NCBI RefSeq assembly: GCF_001553785.1
Contig: NZ_LOJP01000001.1
Coordinates: forward strand, 3,830,929 to 3,894,928
Origin: Actinoplanes sp. TFC3
GTDB lineage: Bacteria; Actinomycetota; Actinomycetes; Mycobacteriales; Micromonosporaceae
Direction of reading: 5' to 3'
Length of the DNA: 64,000 bases
Of this stretch, positions 19,500-26,856 are shown piece after piece; the first letter of the stretch is position 1; the number at the start of each line of letters is the position of its first letter. Below the pieces are notes generated by a model, which was not told where the DNA came from, searched no databases, and saw only the letters and a program-made list of their open reading frames with translations. A program made the position numbers and the translations under genes.

Positions 19500-20735
19500 C
19501 TAACCCCGTTCGGCCAGCCAGGCGTCGATCAGCCCGCCGAAGTGGCCGAGGAACTTTTCGTGCTCGTGGGGCGGGTACATGGTTCGCACGGTTTCGGTGA
19601 GCAGGCTGCGGAACTCCGGGGAGCTGACCCAGTCGTGGACCATCTCGTCGACGTGAGCCAGGTGCTTCTCGCAGAACTCCTGGTAGCGCTCGGTTTCGAA
19701 GTAGCCGTCGGCGAGCTTGCGGTAGGCGGCGAGCTTCTCCTCGTACGACAGCTCGGGGTTGTCCGCGACCTTGAAGTAGGCCGAGGTGTCCATGTCGAGG
19801 CGGGGGCGGCGGTTGGTCACCACGCAGAACACCGTCCAGCGCAGCAGCGCCGTCATCGCCCACGGGAAGTAGTAGTGCAGCGAGGTCACGGCCACGTCGG
19901 GGCAGGCGTTGGCGTAGTCGATGGGGTGGACCTCGGTGCCCTTGATCAGCGACTCGCAGGAGTTGAACTCCCAGCGGAAGAACGCGTTGACCAGCCGGGA
20001 GATCGTCACCACCTCGTCGCCGACGGCCGGGGCGAGGAAGTCGTGGCTGACCGCGTACCGCTCGTGCATGGGCAGCTCGGGGCGGAACTTCATCACCATG
20101 GTCTCGGGCCCGATGGTCAGCGAGCGGGCGAACACGTCGTAGTCCTCGACCGCGGCCTGCAGGTGCATCAGCCGCTCACCCGAGGCGTCGTAGGCGGCGT
20201 GCAGCTCATCGCTGTTGCGGATCTTGGACACGCCGACCCAGGCGCCGCCGTCGTAGGGCTTCATGTACATCGGATAACCCACCGACTCGGCGAGCGCATC
20301 GAGGTCGAACGGCTGGTTGTAGCGGGCCGAGGTGTAGGCCCAGCGCGAGTTGTCCAGCGGGTTCTTGAACGGCACCAGCACCGTCTCGGGCACCTTGAGA
20401 CCCAGGCGCAGCATGGCGCAGTAGGCCGCGTGTTTCTCCATCGACTGGAACGTGAACGGGCTGTTGAGCAGGTACACGTCGTCCATCAGCGCGGCCTTCT
20501 TCAGCCATTCCCGCGGGTGGTAGTACCAGTACGCCAGCCGGTCGATGACCAGGTCGTGCTGCGGCTTGTCGCGGAGGTTGAACGGCTCGATGCTCACCCG
20601 CACGGAGCGGATCCGATGGGTACGACCGGACGGCTCGGTGATCGCCCCCACCCGCCGCAGCAACGCCTCGTAGGCCCGTGGCCAGTCCTCTTCGGTCCCC
20701 AGCAGCAGTCCGATGGTGTGCTCGACGTCAGCCAT
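19500..20735 (-). CDS. ATP-grasp domain protein (RimK-like ligase of unknown substrate)
   Basis: A 411-residue protein. The central region has ATP-grasp features: a nucleotide-binding lysine in GYPMYMKPYDGGAWVGVSKI and FNLRDKP/DDVYLLNSPFTFQSMEKHAAY, which resembles the pre-ATP-grasp fold and the N-terminal part of the grasp. After about residue 250 the chain is helical (DTSAYFKVADNPELSYEEKLAAYRKLADG). ATP-grasp enzymes join carboxylates to amines or thiols through acyl-phosphates; the substrates here are not evident. It is the last gene of a STAS-esterase-ATP-grasp operon, and an esterase partner suggests a soluble ester or amide product. Confidence 0.75.
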   Translation of the reverse strand: MADVEHTIGLLLGTEEDWPRAYEALLRRVGAITEPSGRTHRIRSVRVSIEPFNLRDKPQHDLVIDRLAYWYYHPREWLKKAALMDDVYLLNSPFTFQSMEKHAAYCAMLRLGLKVPETVLVPFKNPLDNSRWAYTSARYNQPFDLDALAESVGYPMYMKPYDGGAWVGVSKIRNSDELHAAYDASGERLMHLQAAVEDYDVFARSLTIGPETMVMKFRPELPMHERYAVSHDFLAPAVGDEVVTISRLVNAFFRWEFNSCESLIKGTEVHPIDYANACPDVAVTSLHYYFPWAMTALLRWTVFCVVTNRRPRLDMDTSAYFKVADNPELSYEEKLAAYRKLADGYFETERYQEFCEKHLAHVDEMVHDWVSSPEFRSLLTETVRTMYPPHEHEKFLGHFGGLIDAWLAERG

Positions 20736-20757
20736 CGCGCGCCCTCTTTCCCAGGAA

Positions 20758-21414
20758 CTAGCGGAACACCTTCTTCAGCAGGTCAGTGAAGTGCGGGTCG
20801 AACGCAGCCCGCCAGGATTCCCAGTCGTGGCCGCCCCGAACTTCGGCGAACTCCACCGCGTAACCCTGACCGGCCAGCACGGCGGCCATGTCCCGGTTGT
20901 TGGCGAGGTTCTCCTCCACCGTGCCGCATGTGAGCGCGATTGGCACGCCGGGGCCACCGGTTGACCTGATCACGCGGCCGGTGAAGCGCACAATGCGCAG
21001 CCAGCGGGCGAACCCGGACTCCTGACGGTCGAAGCGGGGCTGGAAGAAGCTGCCGGACTGCAGCAGCAGACCGGCGAAGCGGGCGGGATGGCGGCGCTGA
21101 GCGTGCAGCATGGCCAGCGCGCCGAGGCTGGCCCCCACCCCGAGCACCGGCTTGTCGGTGCCGAGCCGCTCGAACAGCTCGGGCAGGAACTTCTCGGCCA
21201 GGGCGCGGGCGTAGACCGGATTGGCCGAGTAGTCCTCGAGGCGATCGTCGCTGGAGATCAGGGCCAGATGGTACGGCCGCACGTGCCCGGCCTTGATGAC
21301 CTGCTCGGAGAACGCGACGATCGCGCCGTACCGCTGATAGTCGGGCCCGTCATGGACCACGACGATGCGGTCCGCGGGCACCGGGGGTGACCAGAGCGTG
21401 GCCGTGATCTCCAA
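20758..21414 (-). CDS. Alpha/beta-hydrolase esterase (enterochelin-esterase-like)
   Basis: A 218-residue alpha/beta hydrolase of the Esterase/Fes type. The nucleophile Ser is in GVGASLGALAM, the catalytic His is in RGGHDWESW, and an acidic residue is likely in TCGTVEENL. The N-terminus VVVHDGPDYQRYG matches the family's first strand and oxyanion segment. It lies 4 bp after the STAS gene and 22 bp before the ATP-grasp gene. No siderophore genes are nearby, so the name reflects fold only. It may act on the product of the ATP-grasp ligase (inference). Confidence 0.82.
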   Translation of the reverse strand: MEITATLWSPPVPADRIVVVHDGPDYQRYGAIVAFSEQVIKAGHVRPYHLALISSDDRLEDYSANPVYARALAEKFLPELFERLGTDKPVLGVGASLGALAMLHAQRRHPARFAGLLLQSGSFFQPRFDRQESGFARWLRIVRFTGRVIRSTGGPGVPIALTCGTVEENLANNRDMAAVLAGQGYAVEFAEVRGGHDWESWRAAFDPHFTDLLKKVFR

Positions 21415-21418
21415 GGTC

Positions 21419-21754
21419 TTACGGGGTGTAGCTCTGCGGCCCGGTGGGATGCGCGGGCAGGCCGAACATCTCGGTCAGACCGGTGACGCGCAACTGGTGG
21501 TGCACGAACTCGCTGGGGTTGCGCAGCACGAAGCGGGTGCCGGTCTCGCGGGCGGCGTTGTAGCCGGCCACCAGCGCACCCACCCCCATCGAATCCATGA
21601 ACGTCACGAACGTGAGGTCGACGATCATCGTCATCGGTCGTTGCGCGTGCAGCGTGGTGAGCAGCGCGGTGCGCAAGGCATCCACCGTTGCCGCGTCGAG
21701 CATGCCGCGCACGTCGACCACGATGGTCCCGTCGGCCTGACGCCGGGTGGTCAT
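21419..21754 (-). CDS. STAS-domain protein (anti-sigma-factor antagonist-like)
   Basis: About 111 residues, a single STAS domain. The motif VTFMDSMGVGALVAGYNAAR contains the Ser in D-S-M-G that corresponds to the residue phosphorylated by anti-sigma kinases in SpoIIAA/RsbV. ATG 21754 with GAGG 5-6 nt upstream is chosen; ATG 21769 would add five residues. It is the first gene of the operon with the esterase and ATP-grasp genes. No anti-sigma kinase is encoded nearby, so it may respond to a kinase elsewhere or act as a localisation or regulatory subunit. Confidence 0.85.
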   Translation of the reverse strand: MTTRRQADGTIVVDVRGMLDAATVDALRTALLTTLHAQRPMTMIVDLTFVTFMDSMGVGALVAGYNAARETGTRFVLRNPSEFVHHQLRVTGLTEMFGLPAHPTGPQSYTP

Positions 21755-21994
21755 CACGGCCTCGCCCATGAACTCTCTCGCCCCACTTCCCGCCTGCGTA
21801 GAAGCTCACCGTACAACGGGCCTCTGCTTCATCGCAGGCTGCCGCACCATTGCGTGGTCACGGCGGACCGGGAGTCCGGCGCAGCGTCACGTGAGCGTGA
21901 CCCACCGCAGGCGCGAGAGGGCAAGCCATCGGGGCAAGTTTCTCGTATCTTGCAGATCATCTTGCGGGCGGCGCAGGTGAACGACATGTTGACA

Positions 21995-22017
21995 CCGGAG
22001 GTCATCGATACCTCCGG
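21995..22017 (+). promoter_or_regulatory. Hairpin just upstream of the permease gene, SD-like arm
   Basis: Arms ccggaggt (21995-22002) and acctccgg (22010-22017) around a 7-nt loop end 14 bp before the start at 22032. The left arm looks like an SD and the right arm like an anti-SD, and the true SD (gagagg) follows. It could modulate translation; no known riboswitch fold was recognised. Confidence 0.4.
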
Positions 22018-22031
22018 GGAGAGGGTGGGTC

Positions 22032-23495
22032 ATGACAACCAGCTCCGGTCAACGGCCGGGAATTTTCGCCATTCGCGACGTCCGTTCCTTGCTCACCGAG
22101 ACGGCCGAGGAGGGACACGGGCTCAAGAAGGCCGTCGGCGCGACACAACTGACCGCCATGGGCGTCGGCGCGATCATCGGCACCGGCATCTTCGTGGTCA
22201 TCGGCGAGGGCGCCGGGGTGGCCGGTCCCGCGGTGATCCTGTCGTTCGTGCTTGCCGCGGTGGCCTGTGCGTTCTCCGCGCTGTCCTACGCCGAGCTGGC
22301 CTCCTCCATCCCGGTGTCCGGCAGCGCCTACACCTACACCTACGCCACGCTGGGCGAGATCGTGGCGTGGATCATCGGGTGGGACCTGATCCTGGAGTAC
22401 GGGGTGAGCGTGGCCGCCATCGCGGTCGGCTGGGGTGGCAACCTCAACGCCTTCCTCGACGCCGCGTTCGGCTGGACCCTGCCCGACGCGATAGCCAAGT
22501 CGCCCGAGGACGGCGGCATCTTCAACCTGCCGGCCGTGTTCATCGTCCTGGCGATCACGCTGCTGCTGGTGCGCGGCGTCACCGAGAGCGCCCGGGTGAA
22601 CCTGGTGATGGTGGCGATCAAGCTGGTCGTGCTGACCTTCTTCATCGTGGTGGCGCTGTTCAACTTCGGCACCGGCAACTTCCACAACTTCGCCCCCTCC
22701 GGCGTCGACGGGGTGACCTCGGCCGCGGCGATCATCTTCTTCGCCTACATCGGCTTCGACGCGGTGTCCACCGGCAGCGAGGAGGCCAAGAACCCGGCGC
22801 GTGACCTGCCGCTGGCCATCATCGGCTCGCTGATCATCTGCACGATCTTCTACGTGCTCACCGCGGTCGGCGCGATCGGCATCGCCACCCCGGCCGAGCT
22901 GGAATCGAGCGACGCACCGCTGGCGGCAGCCCTGGACAAGGGCGCGGGCATCAGCTGGGCGGCGGGACTGCTCGCACTGGGTGCGGTGGTCGCGATCACC
23001 AGCGTCGTGCTGGTCATCATGTACGGCCAGACCCGCATCTTCTTCGCCATGTGCCGCGACGGCCTGCTCCCCCAGCGGCTGGCCACCGTCAACCAGCGCT
23101 ACGGCACCCCGGCCCGGCTGACCATCGGCCTCGGTGTGCTGATCGCGATCCTCGCCGCGCTCGTGCCGCTTTCCGAGATCGTCAAGCTGGTCAACATCGG
23201 CACTCTGTTCGCGTTCGTGCTGGTCAACATCGGTGTGATCATCCTGCGCCGGACCCGCCCGGACATGCCCCGGCCGTACCGGGTGCCATGGTCGCCGGTG
23301 CTGCCGGTCATCGGCGTGGCCTTCGCCATCTACCTGATGAGCGACCTGCCGCTGTCCACCTGGATCCGGTTCGTGGTGTGGCTGGTCATCGGGCTGGCGA
23401 TCTACTTCCTGTACGGCTACCGCAACTCCCGGCTGCGCCGCGAGCACGCCTCGGGCACCCCGGGCTGGGCCCAGAAGGACGGTGAGCAGCCGTGA
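22032..23495 (+). CDS. APC-superfamily amino acid permease (cationic amino acid transporter type)
   Basis: A 487-residue membrane protein with 12 or more helices. The first helix has the substrate-binding GAIIGTGIFVVIGEGAG signature of the APC/CAT family, and later FFAYIGFDAVSTGSEEAKNP and ARLTIGLGVLIAIL match bacterial CAT/YfnA-type transporters. The tail ends cytoplasmic. It probably imports or exchanges an amino acid or related amine. The downstream universal stress protein gene overlaps by 4 bp (GTGA), so permease and stress protein are translationally coupled. It is divergent from the STAS/esterase/ATP-grasp operon. Confidence 0.92.
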   Translation: MTTSSGQRPGIFAIRDVRSLLTETAEEGHGLKKAVGATQLTAMGVGAIIGTGIFVVIGEGAGVAGPAVILSFVLAAVACAFSALSYAELASSIPVSGSAYTYTYATLGEIVAWIIGWDLILEYGVSVAAIAVGWGGNLNAFLDAAFGWTLPDAIAKSPEDGGIFNLPAVFIVLAITLLLVRGVTESARVNLVMVAIKLVVLTFFIVVALFNFGTGNFHNFAPSGVDGVTSAAAIIFFAYIGFDAVSTGSEEAKNPARDLPLAIIGSLIICTIFYVLTAVGAIGIATPAELESSDAPLAAALDKGAGISWAAGLLALGAVVAITSVVLVIMYGQTRIFFAMCRDGLLPQRLATVNQRYGTPARLTIGLGVLIAILAALVPLSEIVKLVNIGTLFAFVLVNIGVIILRRTRPDMPRPYRVPWSPVLPVIGVAFAIYLMSDLPLSTWIRFVVWLVIGLAIYFLYGYRNSRLRREHASGTPGWAQKDGEQP

Positions 23496-24361
23496 CCGCC
23501 CCCGTGGTGGTCGGCGTGGACGGCGGGGAATCCGGGCGCGACGCCGTCGTGCTGGGAGCCTGGGCGGCCTCCGCGCTGGAGGCCCCCCTGGTGGTGGCCG
23601 TCGTGCACCCGGCCCCGGCCGCGCTGGGCTCGGGCCGGGTCGACGCCGAGTGGGTCGCCGAGCGGCACCGCGCCGCGCAGTCCGTGCTCGACGGGGCCCG
23701 GGCGGTGGCCGCCGAACTCGACGCTGCGGCCGAGTACCGGATGGTCGCTTCGACCTCGGCCGCGCACGGGCTCAACGACCTGGCCGAGGAACTCGGGGCC
23801 GAGACGATCGTGGTGGGCTCGGGCCGCGCCGGCCCCCGGCACCGGCTGTTCGCCGGCAGCACCGCCGACCGGCTGCTGGCCGGCAGCGTCTGCCCGGTGG
23901 CGGTGGCCCCGTCCGGCCTGGAACGGGCGCCCGGCTCGGTGGGGCGCATCGGGGTGGCCTACGTGGACACGATGGACGGGCGCGCGGCACTTGAGCGGGC
24001 CGCCCGGCTGGCGGCGCTCACCAAGACCCCGATCCGGCTGTACACGGTGGTGGCAGATGCTGACGCGACGCTGCCGTGGCTGGTCGGGCAGGACGCCGAG
24101 CACGCTTTTCTGGACACCGCGCGCGAAACCTACGAGCTGGCGTTGAGCCGGGCCGCCGAGTCGGTCAGCGGAACCCCTGTGGACTGGGAGATCCGCACCG
24201 GCGACGTGGTCGACCAGCTCGCCGAGCTGGACGAGGTGGACGTGCTGATCACCGGCTCACGCGGGTACGGACCCGCCCGGCGGGTGCTGCTCGGCGGGGT
24301 GTCGACCCGGCTGGTGCGCCGCGCCCGGCGCCCGGTCGTCGTGGTGCCGCGCAGCGGCTGA
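23492..24361 (+). CDS. Universal stress protein, tandem UspA domains
   Basis: A 289-residue protein of two UspA domains. The first ends with the nucleotide-loop pattern VVGSGRAGPRHRLFAGSTADRLL and VCPVAVAP; the second with ITGSRGYGPARRVLLGGVSTRLV and RRPVVVVP. These G-2X-G-9X-G(S/T) loops suggest both domains can bind ATP. The GTG start overlaps the permease stop. USP/transporter pairs are common in actinomycetes and may gate the transporter under energy stress. A strong terminator hairpin follows at 24372. Confidence 0.9.
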   Translation: MTAPVVVGVDGGESGRDAVVLGAWAASALEAPLVVAVVHPAPAALGSGRVDAEWVAERHRAAQSVLDGARAVAAELDAAAEYRMVASTSAAHGLNDLAEELGAETIVVGSGRAGPRHRLFAGSTADRLLAGSVCPVAVAPSGLERAPGSVGRIGVAYVDTMDGRAALERAARLAALTKTPIRLYTVVADADATLPWLVGQDAEHAFLDTARETYELALSRAAESVSGTPVDWEIRTGDVVDQLAELDEVDVLITGSRGYGPARRVLLGGVSTRLVRRARRPVVVVPRSG

Positions 24362-24369
24362 GCGGGTGC

Positions 24370-25353
24370 TCAGGCCCGGTGGCGGCCGGGCCTTTCATCC
24401 TCGGTGTCGATGTCGTCCTCGAAGGGCGGCATCGCCACGTCGGTCGGGGCCTCGGCCGCCCGCTCGTCCCACGGTGACACGGCCGAGGGGCGCGGCGTGC
24501 GCTCACCGAAATCGACAAGTGGCACGTACACGCGGGCGTCCACGGCCTCGGCCAGCAGCAGCGCGGCGACCAGCGCGGTAGGGCGTTCCGCGGGGTCCTT
24601 GTCGAGGCAGCGCGAGCACAGGTCGAGCACCTCGGTGGCCAGGCCCTCGATCGGCGGCAGCGGGTCGGGGTGGCGATAGCGCTGGGCGTACACCAGCGCG
24701 GTGCCGGATTCGACCTGCCACGGCAGGCGCCCGGACAGGCAGTGGTAGAGCAGCACGCCGAGGGCGTACATGTCCGACGCCGGGCTGGCGGGCAGGCCCT
24801 GGAAGCGCTCGGGGGCCACATACGCCGGGGTGCCCATCACCGGCCCGTCGGGATCGGGGTCCTGGCTGCCCGCGGCGGCGGCGATGCCGAAGTCGAGCAC
24901 CTTGGCGCCCGAGGGCGTGAGCATGATGTTCGACGGCTTGATGTCGCGGTGCACCACGTCCTGGGCGTGCGCGGCGGCCAGCGCGGCGGCCACCTCGGCG
25001 CAGATGCGCACGGCGATGCGCCAGTCCAGCCCGCCCGCGGCGAGGTGCTCGCTGAGCGTCTGGCCGTCGATGAGTTCCATCACGATGTAGGGCACGTCGC
25101 GGTCGTGCGCCGGTGAGGTGCCGAAATCGTGCACGCCGGCCACGTTGGGATGGGCCAGCCGGGCTGCCGAGCGGGCCTCGGTGCGGACCAGGTCGACGCT
25201 GTCCACATCGCCCAGCGTGCCCTCCACCGCCGGGGCCATGATCTTGACGGCCACCGGGCGGTCGAGGACCTGGTCGTGGCCGCGCCACACCTCGGCCATG
25301 CCGCCGATGCCGATCCGCTGCTCGAGCTGATACCTCCCGCCCAGCGTGCGCAT
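24370..25353 (-). CDS. Serine/threonine protein kinase (PknB-like catalytic domain)
   Basis: A 327-residue Hanks-type kinase. The Gly loop GIGGMAEVWRG lies at residues 15-25, ATP-binding Lys at 37, catalytic HRDIKPSN at 135-142 and DFG at 154-156; the activation segment has VMGTPAYVAPE. All catalytic residues are present. It lacks a membrane helix and PASTA domains, so it is cytosolic; the 60-residue tail is acidic. ATG 25353 is chosen because it directly precedes the kinase fold. It is third in the same-strand unit after the SpeD-like and acyltransferase genes, with an 89-bp gap that may hold its own promoter. Confidence 0.93.
   Translation of the reverse strand: MRTLGGRYQLEQRIGIGGMAEVWRGHDQVLDRPVAVKIMAPAVEGTLGDVDSVDLVRTEARSAARLAHPNVAGVHDFGTSPAHDRDVPYIVMELIDGQTLSEHLAAGGLDWRIAVRICAEVAAALAAAHAQDVVHRDIKPSNIMLTPSGAKVLDFGIAAAAGSQDPDPDGPVMGTPAYVAPERFQGLPASPASDMYALGVLLYHCLSGRLPWQVESGTALVYAQRYRHPDPLPPIEGLATEVLDLCSRCLDKDPAERPTALVAALLLAEAVDARVYVPLVDFGERTPRPSAVSPWDERAAEAPTDVAMPPFEDDIDTEDERPGRHRA
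24372..24393. terminator. Hairpin terminator between convergent USP and kinase genes
   Basis: Arms aggcccgg (24372-24379) and ccgggcct (24386-24393), a 6-nt loop, then tt on the plus strand. It overlaps the end of the kinase gene and probably stops transcription from both sides. Confidence 0.7.
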
Positions 25354-25442
25354 CCTCGGAACCCCCTGTCGCGGCTGACCCGGGCCTTGCCGCCCCCCGG
25401 CCCGGTTCGAGATCGGTACCCGCGGCCCAGCGGGCACAAACG

Positions 25443-26195
25443 TCACGCCCGGGTGGTGTCCACGATGAGGTGGTCCAGGTCGCGCCCGGTGCCCACGCGC
25501 AGCGACGCGGTGGCGGCCAGCCGGGCGCTCACCCATCGGCGCCAGCCGCCGGGGCGCAGCAGCGCCAGCGAGGGGCGCGCGGCGGCGCGCAGCTCACGGG
25601 CGTGCGCCGTGACCGCGGGGGCGATCGCCGGGAAGTCCATGTAGACCGCCCGGTTCTCGGCCGAGCCGAGATATTCGAACGGCCCGGACCCGGCCAGCGG
25701 CTGCAGGGGCGTGCCGAGCAGGGCGATGCCCCGGTACGCCCGGCGGTCGAGCATCGAGACGGCGTGGCGTACGCCGCGGCGCGCCCCCATCACCAGGAAC
25801 GTGCGGTACAGCAGCGAGCTGACCAGCAGCCCGGTGCGCCGCCCGCGATACTCCGGCTGCACCGCGAGGGTGGCGCAGTCCCAGATCAGGCCGCCATCCA
25901 TGCCGTGGCGGGCCAGGATCTCCTGCAGCGGCACGCCGATGTGCGCGGGGGCGTCGTCGATGGTCTTGTTGCCCGCGCCGGTGCTCTCGATCATCCGGGC
26001 CACCCCGGCCGGTACGCCGCGGCGGCGGTCCAGCACCACGAAGAAAAGGCTGTTCAGCTCGTACGGGCTGTACTCGGCCTGCATGACCTGCTCGTCGTTG
26101 CCGAACGTGCTGTCGAAGATGCGCCGTTCCAGCTCACGCCCGGCGTCAGCCAGCTCGGAAGCGGGACCGGTGACCACGCAGACGAAGCGGGCCAT
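25443..26195 (-). CDS. GNAT/autoinducer-synthase-fold N-acyltransferase
   Basis: A 250-residue protein. The layout matches the N-acyl amino acid or N-acyl-homoserine-lactone synthase branch of the GNAT superfamily: ELERRIFDSTFG in the N-terminal arm, SLFFVVLDRRRGVPAGVARMI as core strands, LIWDCATLAVQPEYRGRRTG as the cofactor-binding strand and loop (RGRRTG in place of RxxGxG), then RRAYRGIALLGTPLQPL. It would move an acyl group from CoA or ACP to an amine. ATG 26195 starts 2 bp after the stop of the SpeD-like gene, so these two are co-translated. The acyl acceptor might be the product of that gene (inference). Confidence 0.7.
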   Translation of the reverse strand: MARFVCVVTGPASELADAGRELERRIFDSTFGNDEQVMQAEYSPYELNSLFFVVLDRRRGVPAGVARMIESTGAGNKTIDDAPAHIGVPLQEILARHGMDGGLIWDCATLAVQPEYRGRRTGLLVSSLLYRTFLVMGARRGVRHAVSMLDRRAYRGIALLGTPLQPLAGSGPFEYLGSAENRAVYMDFPAIAPAVTAHARELRAAARPSLALLRPGGWRRWVSARLAATASLRVGTGRDLDHLIVDTTRA

Positions 26196-26197
26196 GG

Positions 26198-26548
26198 TCA
26201 GAAGTCCTTGCCCACGATCTCGGTGGCCTGGAAATAGTCGCGGGTGAAATCGATGACCGCGCCCGGGTCGAACGCCTTGCACGTGTAGACGTCGACGCTG
26301 AAGAACGCGATCGGCCGTTCCCAGGAGTAGAAGTGCGCTCCCGAGGTCTCCCAGTGGATCCAGCCGGCCCAGCCGTAGCGGTCGCTGACGTGGGTGACCG
26401 GATCGATCAGCGTGACCATGCCGGTAACCTCGGACAGGCGGCTCAGATAGTCGCGGATGTGGGCGTCGGTGATCGGATAAGCCGGATATCCCTCGACGAC
26501 CAGCCGCTGACGCGTGATGGCCGGGGCGAGATCCTTGAAGTCCAGCAT
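26198..26548 (-). CDS. SpeD-fold protein (S-adenosylmethionine decarboxylase-like) with altered active site
   Basis: A 116-residue protein from ATG 26548, with AAGG upstream. Its length and pattern match class-1b prokaryotic AdoMetDC: TGMVTLIDPVTHVS in the strand before the cleavage site, then WETSGAHFYSWERP, then FFSVDVYTC. Aligned by eye, the pyruvoyl-forming Ser (Ser69), the Trp seven residues later (76) and the catalytic Cys (90) are kept. The Glu before the Ser is Thr68, and the two His of the canonical ESHxxxHTW are Gly70 and Tyr74, with a His at 72 instead. Self-processing and substrate may therefore differ. It is first in a unit with an acyltransferase. Confidence 0.68.
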   Translation of the reverse strand: MLDFKDLAPAITRQRLVVEGYPAYPITDAHIRDYLSRLSEVTGMVTLIDPVTHVSDRYGWAGWIHWETSGAHFYSWERPIAFFSVDVYTCKAFDPGAVIDFTRDYFQATEIVGKDF

Positions 26549-26856
26549 CGGCTCAACCTTTTCCTGCACCTTGCACAGTGAACAATCGACGCCGGGCAGC
26601 TTGTCATCCCGCGGCGCCGGCTTCAAACAGGCTCCGGCGCGACCCAGTCACGCACGGTGAACCTGCACAAAGCAAACATGGCGAAGCTCGTCCTTGTGGA
26701 ACGGGCTCCGCCATGGTGGCTGTACCGTCAAATCCGCCTTTTATGGTGGCGGGAGCCGGACAGCCGATTCACTTCTGACGATCAAGCTAGGCGTCAGCGG
26801 TCACGGACCGTCATCCGGGGGGCCCGCACGTGACCCGGCTAACATCGCCGGTCATC
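26549..26856. other. Upstream region of the SpeD-like unit, no gene seen
   Basis: This stretch separates the SpeD-like start from the 3' end of the beta-propeller gene on the same strand. It contains an imperfect inverted repeat (ggctccgcc at 26704-26712; ggcgggagcc at 26748-26757) enclosing two copies of a ccgcc...atggtggc motif. On the minus strand a TTGACG lies inside this repeat and could be a -35 box. No convincing -10 box was found. Confidence 0.4.

Follow-up and report, generated by a model that had tools for sequence, protein, structure and literature searches.

The window analysed here is a stretch of 64,000 nucleotides from the 7.75 Mb genome of Actinoplanes sp. TFC3, and our subject is a pair of adjacent genes on its minus strand, the first encoding a SpeD-like protein and the second a putative N-acyltransferase. 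The SpeD-like gene (26198..26548) encodes 116 amino acids; a TTG further upstream, at 26626, may serve as an alternative start. The acyltransferase gene (25443..26195, 250 amino acids) follows 2 bp downstream, and we assign its product to the LuxI/FeeM type on the basis of a structure model, fold comparison and this adjacency. In other lineages the pair stands near a membrane protein linked to cyclic di-GMP (c-di-GMP), and pair and membrane protein may constitute an undescribed chemical signalling system. The nearest loci in named records are those of Micromonosporaceae, e.g., Couchioplanes, Pseudosporangium and Nucisporomicrobium.

Folds and conserved residues of the two proteins

The SpeD-like protein matches PF02675 (AdoMet_dc) with 35.8-36.4 bits, the cut-off being 25, and it scores below the NCBIfam equivalog TIGR03330 (13.8 bits versus 75.65). 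Its structure model has a pLDDT of 92.3. Comparison of this model with the S-adenosylmethionine decarboxylase (AdoMetDC) of T. maritima (1vr7) gave a Z score of 13.9 and a root-mean-square deviation (rmsd) of 2.6, with 106 aligned residues and 17% identity. Judged by the model, the protein has the AdoMet-decarboxylase fold. The SpeD profile found no match among PDB sequences, and a search of phages with SpeD found none either; among plasmids there were three remote matches, with 30-34% identity.

Residues were mapped to AdoMetDC via a bridging sequence (L041) that can be aligned to solved AdoMetDCs (1tlu). In this mapping, Ser69 (codon 26342..26344, minus strand) corresponds to the pyruvoyl-forming Ser63 of the T. 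maritima enzyme, a number also given in the title of structure 1tmi, and Cys90 (codon 26279..26281, minus strand) corresponds to the active-site Cys83. Trp76 is aligned with Trp70, Ala61 with Ser55 and Tyr74 with His68. In AdoMetDC, Cys83 belongs to the active site, and Ser55 and His68 act in processing. Both Ser69 and Cys90 are invariant in our alignments A1, A4 and A6 and in all 40 rows of a wide alignment, and the surrounding block hardly varies in A6, which comprises eight sequences from three families. Trp76 is also invariant in the 40 rows.

The model of the acyltransferase has a pLDDT of 90.1. Comparisons with VIA-align gave high scores for RpaI (Z 16.7, rmsd 2.8, 193 aligned residues), FeeM (2g0b; Z 16.1, rmsd 2.9, 177 aligned), LasI (Z 16.0, rmsd 3.2, 183 aligned) and BjaI (Z 15.9, rmsd 2.9, 191 aligned), i.e., for N-acyl homoserine lactone (AHL) synthases and FeeM, although their margin over a plain GNAT protein is small (5jph is next, with Z 15.3 over 142 aligned residues). 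The best Foldseek match is FeeM (E 1.7e-7). The window protein has no Pfam match at E values up to 1, and at this threshold none of 10 members of the acyltransferase family matches the Pfam autoinducer-synthase model (Autoind_synth). Weak matches to PF13444 occur in five of the 10 (best E 1.8e-4), the window protein not being one of them, and a fused protein discussed below (L125) is under the curated cut-offs (PF13444, 21.5 versus 22.4; PF21926, 11.9 versus 27). Searches of PDB sequences gave nothing useful (best E 0.3), and searches of plasmids gave no match for this acyltransferase or for that of locus L135 (see below). As modelled, the acyltransferase has the shape of AHL synthases and FeeM, and it lies outside the Pfam autoinducer-synthase family. 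The initial annotation of this DNA had read a SpeD-like fold and an autoinducer-synthase-like fold from the letters, and the models and fold comparisons bear out both readings.

The pair as a unit and its surroundings

When a collection of species was searched with the acyltransferase alone, the SpeD gene was found directly upstream and on the same strand in all 11 named Micromonosporaceae loci. The called frames in these loci range from a 7 bp overlap to a 5 bp gap, where start sites are approximate because genes were called with a home-made caller based on GC content by position, together with six-frame searches. Adjacent SpeD and acyltransferase genes are also carried by three more congeners (G090, G102 and G119). 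Among 121 Micromonosporaceae genomes, seven have a close SpeD homologue and two more have a remote one (33-34% identity). In 396 genomes of the phylum, the SpeD profile found matches in nine, four of them strong, and the acyltransferase search found matches in six, three of them strong. The three genomes with a strong acyltransferase match are all among the four with a strong SpeD match; the query alignment already contained rows from two of the three (G403 and G306). One of these genomes belongs to another actinomycete order, in which 14 of 248 genomes contain SpeD. Each of the 13 testable loci has the acyltransferase next to SpeD, the untestable one (L128) having SpeD at a contig end.

At one locus (L125), SpeD (residues 22-129) and the acyltransferase (residues 146-362) are fused in a single frame of 409 amino acids. 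This fusion and the conserved adjacency make a functional link between the two proteins close to certain, and we have hardly any doubt that the pair is a real unit. The functional link had been suggested by the initial annotation, and the adjacent or fused genes of distant lineages uphold it. Trees of both proteins, built for 29 loci with three duplicate loci (L010, L011 and L015) omitted, group the Micromonosporaceae rows, and many of their inner forks are weak. In the acyltransferase tree, the long branch of L039 falls among the Micromonosporaceae rows, and we do not claim congruence of the trees.

When the genes of six Micromonosporaceae loci (L031, L032 and L034-L037) were clustered with those of other loci, no third constant gene emerged beside the pair. 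Directly upstream of the pair at L032, L035 and L036 there is at least one gene that reads as ABC-transporter-like and might encode an exporter.

Remote relatives of the SpeD-like protein have neighbours of various kinds. One distant family has four genomes (L042-L045) in which the relative stands closely behind a gene that reads as aminotransferase-like. On plasmid pREC2 of Acaryochloris marina (L102), it is flanked by a GNAT family gene on one side and an SDR gene on the other, and in one of the Micromonosporaceae (L016) an apparently SDR-like gene is just upstream.

The initial annotation had placed the pair in a composite locus of eight genes. All eight reading frames are present as it had placed them. 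Pfam matches in the window are to STAS, esterase, amino-acid permease, Usp, Ser/Thr kinase and AdoMet_dc, and those of the ATP-grasp protein fall under the Pfam cut-offs. The annotated spacings also hold (2 bp from SpeD to acyltransferase, 4 bp from STAS to esterase and 22 bp from esterase to ATP-grasp), as does the overlap of the permease and universal stress protein (USP) genes at GTGA. However, tight packing of the minus-strand unit that includes the pair is true only of the pair itself; the kinase gene likely begins with the ATG at 25353, which leaves a looser 89 bp between it and the acyltransferase gene. The window esterase (20758-21414, 218 amino acids) has an N-terminus roughly 115 residues shorter than its relatives of 330-341 amino acids (L029, L030 and L033), and it is because of this short N-terminus that only 4 bp separate it from STAS.

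We rejected the composite of eight genes as a conserved unit. The six other genes are near the pair in five of the 11 named loci (L027, L028, L029, L030 and L033). In these five, GH43-like, sulfotransferase and glycosyltransferase genes are likewise in place, which makes the arrangement plain synteny of an entire region. The remaining six loci (L031, L032 and L034-L037) carry the pair in other surroundings, and orthologues of the six genes are absent from their examined flanks, L032 having only a 35% match to the kinase. These six loci give no support to a pathway in which, as had been envisaged, the products of the six genes join the pair. Moreover, two genomes of the same genus (L082 and L083) have the six genes without the pair. 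STAS, permease, USP, kinase and GH43-like genes stand there in a row with no pair between the kinase and GH43 genes, and this is a natural empty site for the pair. Instead of one interleaved unit, we see three groups that vary independently across relatives, namely the SpeD-acyltransferase pair, the esterase-ATP-grasp pair and the STAS, permease, USP and kinase genes. The groups are not conserved neighbours of one another, whereas the two genes of the SpeD-acyltransferase pair are.

Co-occurrence of the ATP-grasp gene with the pair, which the composite had implied, was found in part. An ATP-grasp orthologue is present in 24 of the 121 Micromonosporaceae genomes (four more are weak), and five genomes have both it and a close SpeD. 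Across the family it is therefore commoner with the pair (5 of 7) than without it (19 of 114). However, this enrichment vanishes within the genus, where a sample of eight genomes has the pair in six, ATP-grasp in seven and both in five.

The esterase and ATP-grasp genes (19500-21414 in the window; L082-L099) form a separate conserved unit of Micromonosporaceae. Of 19 loci retrieved from beyond the set with SpeD, 18 have the two genes side by side, and STAS, permease and kinase are near them in three of the 19. A second gene that reads as esterase-like is present in 11 of these loci, mostly between the esterase and ATP-grasp genes in those shown.

A membrane protein beside the pair and a replacement of SpeD

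We examined the surroundings of the pair in 14 loci, i.e., the 13 testable loci of the other order and L039. A protein with GGDEF and EAL domains is encoded beside the pair in 12 of them according to tblastn (L038, L039 and L118-L127). At L039 its gene lies between the two genes of the pair, and at L127 two small called frames separate it from the pair. All 12 proteins share one multi-pass N-terminal membrane domain, for which a crude hydropathy count gives about six to nine helices. At L129 and L130, the gene right after the acyltransferase runs off the contig; it encodes this membrane domain, with a weaker match of 52-53 bits, and then PAS. One membrane-protein family is thus near the pair in all 14 loci. 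Pfam confirms the GGDEF and EAL domains in L031, L038, L039 and L135. A motif scan that took only the first pattern match detected no GGDEF string in the frame of L125, and in L120, L123 and L127 its first match to the EAL pattern was an EVL string, which may not be the motif.

In a random-placement estimate that counts the nearest three genes to either side and takes the gene number as one per kb, 0.38 EAL neighbours are expected in the 14 loci, where 12 are seen (P about 5e-18). The GGDEF-EAL gene and the pair are variously convergent, divergent or codirectional, or the former lies between the genes of the latter, so their link survives rearrangement. Outside these loci, the membrane domain is found in 41 of the 248 genomes of the other order, in a search whose query alignment included nine of the strongest rows. 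Among six further loci with the domain (L132-L137), three (L133, with 4 kb covered, L136 and L137) have neither acyltransferase nor decarboxylase beside it; the other three are described below. The 14 genomes with the pair have 3-27 EAL genes each; the genome of the window (G000), larger than these, has 51 EAL-domain matches.

In one genome (G674), the predicted decarboxylase beside the acyltransferase is of another family. The gene order at this locus (L135) is a gene that reads as ABC-F, the membrane GGDEF-EAL gene, a gene of the PvlArgDC family and the acyltransferase gene. The predicted decarboxylase matches PF01862 (E 1.2e-23), and PvlArgDC differs in fold from SpeD. The ABC-F protein (80% identity) and the GGDEF-EAL protein (53%) are orthologous to those at the L038 site of G403, where the acyltransferase and SpeD stand, and the L135 acyltransferase shares 42% identity, over 200 residues, with the acyltransferase that accompanies SpeD in L039. 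On these sequence comparisons, the SpeD pair and a pair with a predicted pyruvoyl arginine decarboxylase replace each other at one site. Our strongest argument for decarboxylase activity of the SpeD-like protein is this replacement, which also makes arginine a candidate substrate.

Proposed reactions, alternatives and known systems

We propose that the SpeD-fold enzyme would decarboxylate an amino acid to give agmatine or a similar amine, the likeliest substrate being arginine or one of its close relatives. The acyltransferase of AHL-synthase/FeeM fold, which is probably co-transcribed, would then join a fatty-acyl group to this amine, and the resulting N-acyl amine would serve as a lipophilic signal. 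The neighbouring multi-pass membrane GGDEF-EAL protein would, in several lineages of the other order, read the signal and change the level of c-di-GMP. The pair in the window may act likewise, although no GGDEF-EAL gene adjoins it.

Our confidence varies among the parts of this model. Decarboxylation coupled to acylation is reasonably probable, while for a role in signalling we see even chances, and arginine is put forward only tentatively as the substrate. The model in its entirety, from the decarboxylase through the N-acyl amine to its sensing via c-di-GMP proteins, is in our judgement evenly poised between right and wrong. It is also possible, at somewhat below even chances, that an undescribed class of bacterial autoinducer systems exists in which a pyruvoyl-type decarboxylase (SpeD-fold or PvlArgDC) supplies agmatine or a similar amine to a LuxI-fold acyltransferase, and in which a GGDEF-EAL protein senses the N-acyl amine in the membrane without LuxR and sets c-di-GMP directly.

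Several observations weigh against the proposed model. Positions Ser55 and His68 of AdoMetDC are replaced by Ala61 and Tyr74 in all 33 rows of acyltransferase-type SpeD proteins (rows that include three duplicates and one row at a contig end). The canonical-looking row L041 keeps Ser and His there. With two processing or catalytic positions of AdoMetDC changed, pyruvoyl formation is not assured. No acyltransferase homologue was seen in the DNA around the remote SpeD relatives (L016, L017, L040-L045, L101, L102 and L131), where the contig of L040, the fourth strong SpeD genome, is 7.9 kb long and 3.2-14.1 kb are covered for the weaker relatives L041-L045. The membrane domain is common regardless of the pair in Micromonosporaceae (86 of 121 genomes, at lower scores, versus 7 of 121 for the pair), and two loci (L132 and L134) have the acyltransferase and GGDEF-EAL genes without SpeD. 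Among the 11 Micromonosporaceae loci, a GGDEF-EAL gene lies within the flanks covered only in L031, where it is of a different, PAS type, and tblastn found no match to GGDEF or EAL domains within the 64 kb window. Finally, the replacement of SpeD by PvlArgDC is a single case in which the two loci differ in their far flank, and the PvlArgDC protein of L135 is divergent (TIGR00286, 52.5 bits versus a cut-off of 106.95).

These points must be considered together with other explanations. The SpeD-like protein might be a non-enzymatic subunit, regulatory or substrate-binding, on which the acyltransferase depends, the acyltransferase then acylating a free amine or amino acid. The substitutions at Ala61 and Tyr74 agree with this explanation, and the fusion at L125 would fit a permanent complex. 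Moreover, the fold matches include the prozyme complex (5tvm) and spermine synthase (3c6k), and trypanosome prozyme and the N-terminal domain of spermine synthase are SpeD folds with regulatory or binding roles. However, the invariance of Ser69 and Cys90 in 40 of 40 rows and the near-invariant block around them would be unusual for a dead enzyme, and in G674 it is a PvlArgDC-like decarboxylase that accompanies the acyltransferase beside the orthologous GGDEF-EAL gene. We regard a non-enzymatic role as unlikely, if worth keeping in mind.

A second explanation accepts an N-acylated amine as the product of the pair but sees it as a lipid, surfactant or antibiotic, with the GGDEF-EAL protein only regulating its production or sensing the state of the membrane. 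The best Foldseek match, FeeM, has a structure entry (2g0b) whose title names an N-acyl amino acid synthase, and palmitoylputrescine, a compound originating from environmental DNA, is named in excerpts of the literature. The lack of a GGDEF-EAL neighbour in 10 of the 11 Micromonosporaceae loci is in keeping with such a product. In other lineages, however, the constant neighbour across different gene arrangements is a GGDEF-EAL membrane protein from a single family, and it stays with the acyltransferase even at L132 and L134, where SpeD is missing. This explanation strikes us as rather improbable.

Thirdly, the SpeD-like protein could be a true AdoMetDC, whose partner uses S-adenosylmethionine (SAM) or decarboxylated SAM to make an AHL-related product. 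Both folds belong to SAM-using families, and Trp76, which is aligned with Trp70, is invariant. Among AdoMetDC residues, Trp70 stacks on the adenine and Glu72 binds the ribose. Yet the position of Glu72 is occupied by Arg, Glu, Asp, Ser, Thr or Val across the 33 rows, with Glu in five, and none of the 10 acyltransferases matches the Pfam autoinducer-synthase model. The N-terminal domain of spermidine synthase (PF17284) was not found in the genome of the window; PF02675 had no match there either, but this search also missed the window's own SpeD and so is no sure guide to a second one. The family that takes the place of SpeD in G674 is, in addition, one of arginine decarboxylases. We consider a true AdoMetDC very improbable. 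The last explanation, a single metabolite-signal locus of all eight genes, has in its favour the five loci that share them with the window and the family-wide ATP-grasp enrichment, but in view of the wider synteny, the six loci with the pair alone, the pairless L082 and L083 and the lost enrichment within the genus, we give it almost no credence.

We next compare the proposed model with known systems. SpeDA and SpeDC are SpeD homologues, i.e., neofunctionalised AdoMetDCs, that have been proven to decarboxylate L-arginine or L-ornithine, as described in the consulted part of PMC10407285. The SpeD-like protein of the window resembles them in its fold and in the conserved Ser and Cys, and it occurs in a genome with no detected spermidine synthase domain. 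It differs in having Ala and Tyr for Ser55 and His68, and in its company: SpeDA and SpeDC occur with polyamine genes (speY, speB, speE and others; PMC10407285, same part), whereas here the partner is an acyltransferase. In the main text of that paper, no word starts with acyltransferase, autoinducer or LuxI. PvlArgDC (PF01862) is similar in that it adjoins an acyltransferase and an orthologous GGDEF-EAL gene in G674, but it was found in such a pair-like setting only once.

The AHL synthases of the LuxI family (LasI, RpaI and BjaI) are among the best structural matches of the acyltransferase and, like it, would make an N-acyl product. However, the acyltransferase lacks a match to the Pfam autoinducer-synthase model and is paired with a protein of decarboxylase fold. 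N-acyl amide synthases of the FeeM/PF13444 type are similar in structure, FeeM being the best Foldseek match and PF13444 matching weakly in five of 10 members, but identity to FeeM is only 12-16%, and here the amine is proposed to come from the partner decarboxylase. NspS-MbaA, as far as the excerpts seen describe this type of polyamine and c-di-GMP receptor, also links an amine cue to c-di-GMP. The neighbour in our loci has a membrane domain instead, and its cue is proposed to be made by the adjacent genes and to be acylated.

In the open-access PMC literature, a limited search returned no report whose title or abstract start describes the pair or the module among the matches listed. PMC5539150, in the portion available, has no match for decarboxylase, and the main text of PMC13136126 has none for decarboxylase, SpeD or GGDEF. 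The latter, a 2026 study, describes in its consulted part LuxI homologues of the Gram-positive Actinomycetota that are solitary, without LuxR partners. The module offers another set of partners for a LuxI-fold enzyme, namely a decarboxylase that could supply an amine and a membrane protein that could read the product and act on c-di-GMP. If the proposed model is true, acyl-amine chemistry, enzymes of polyamine type and c-di-GMP would be linked in one small cassette.

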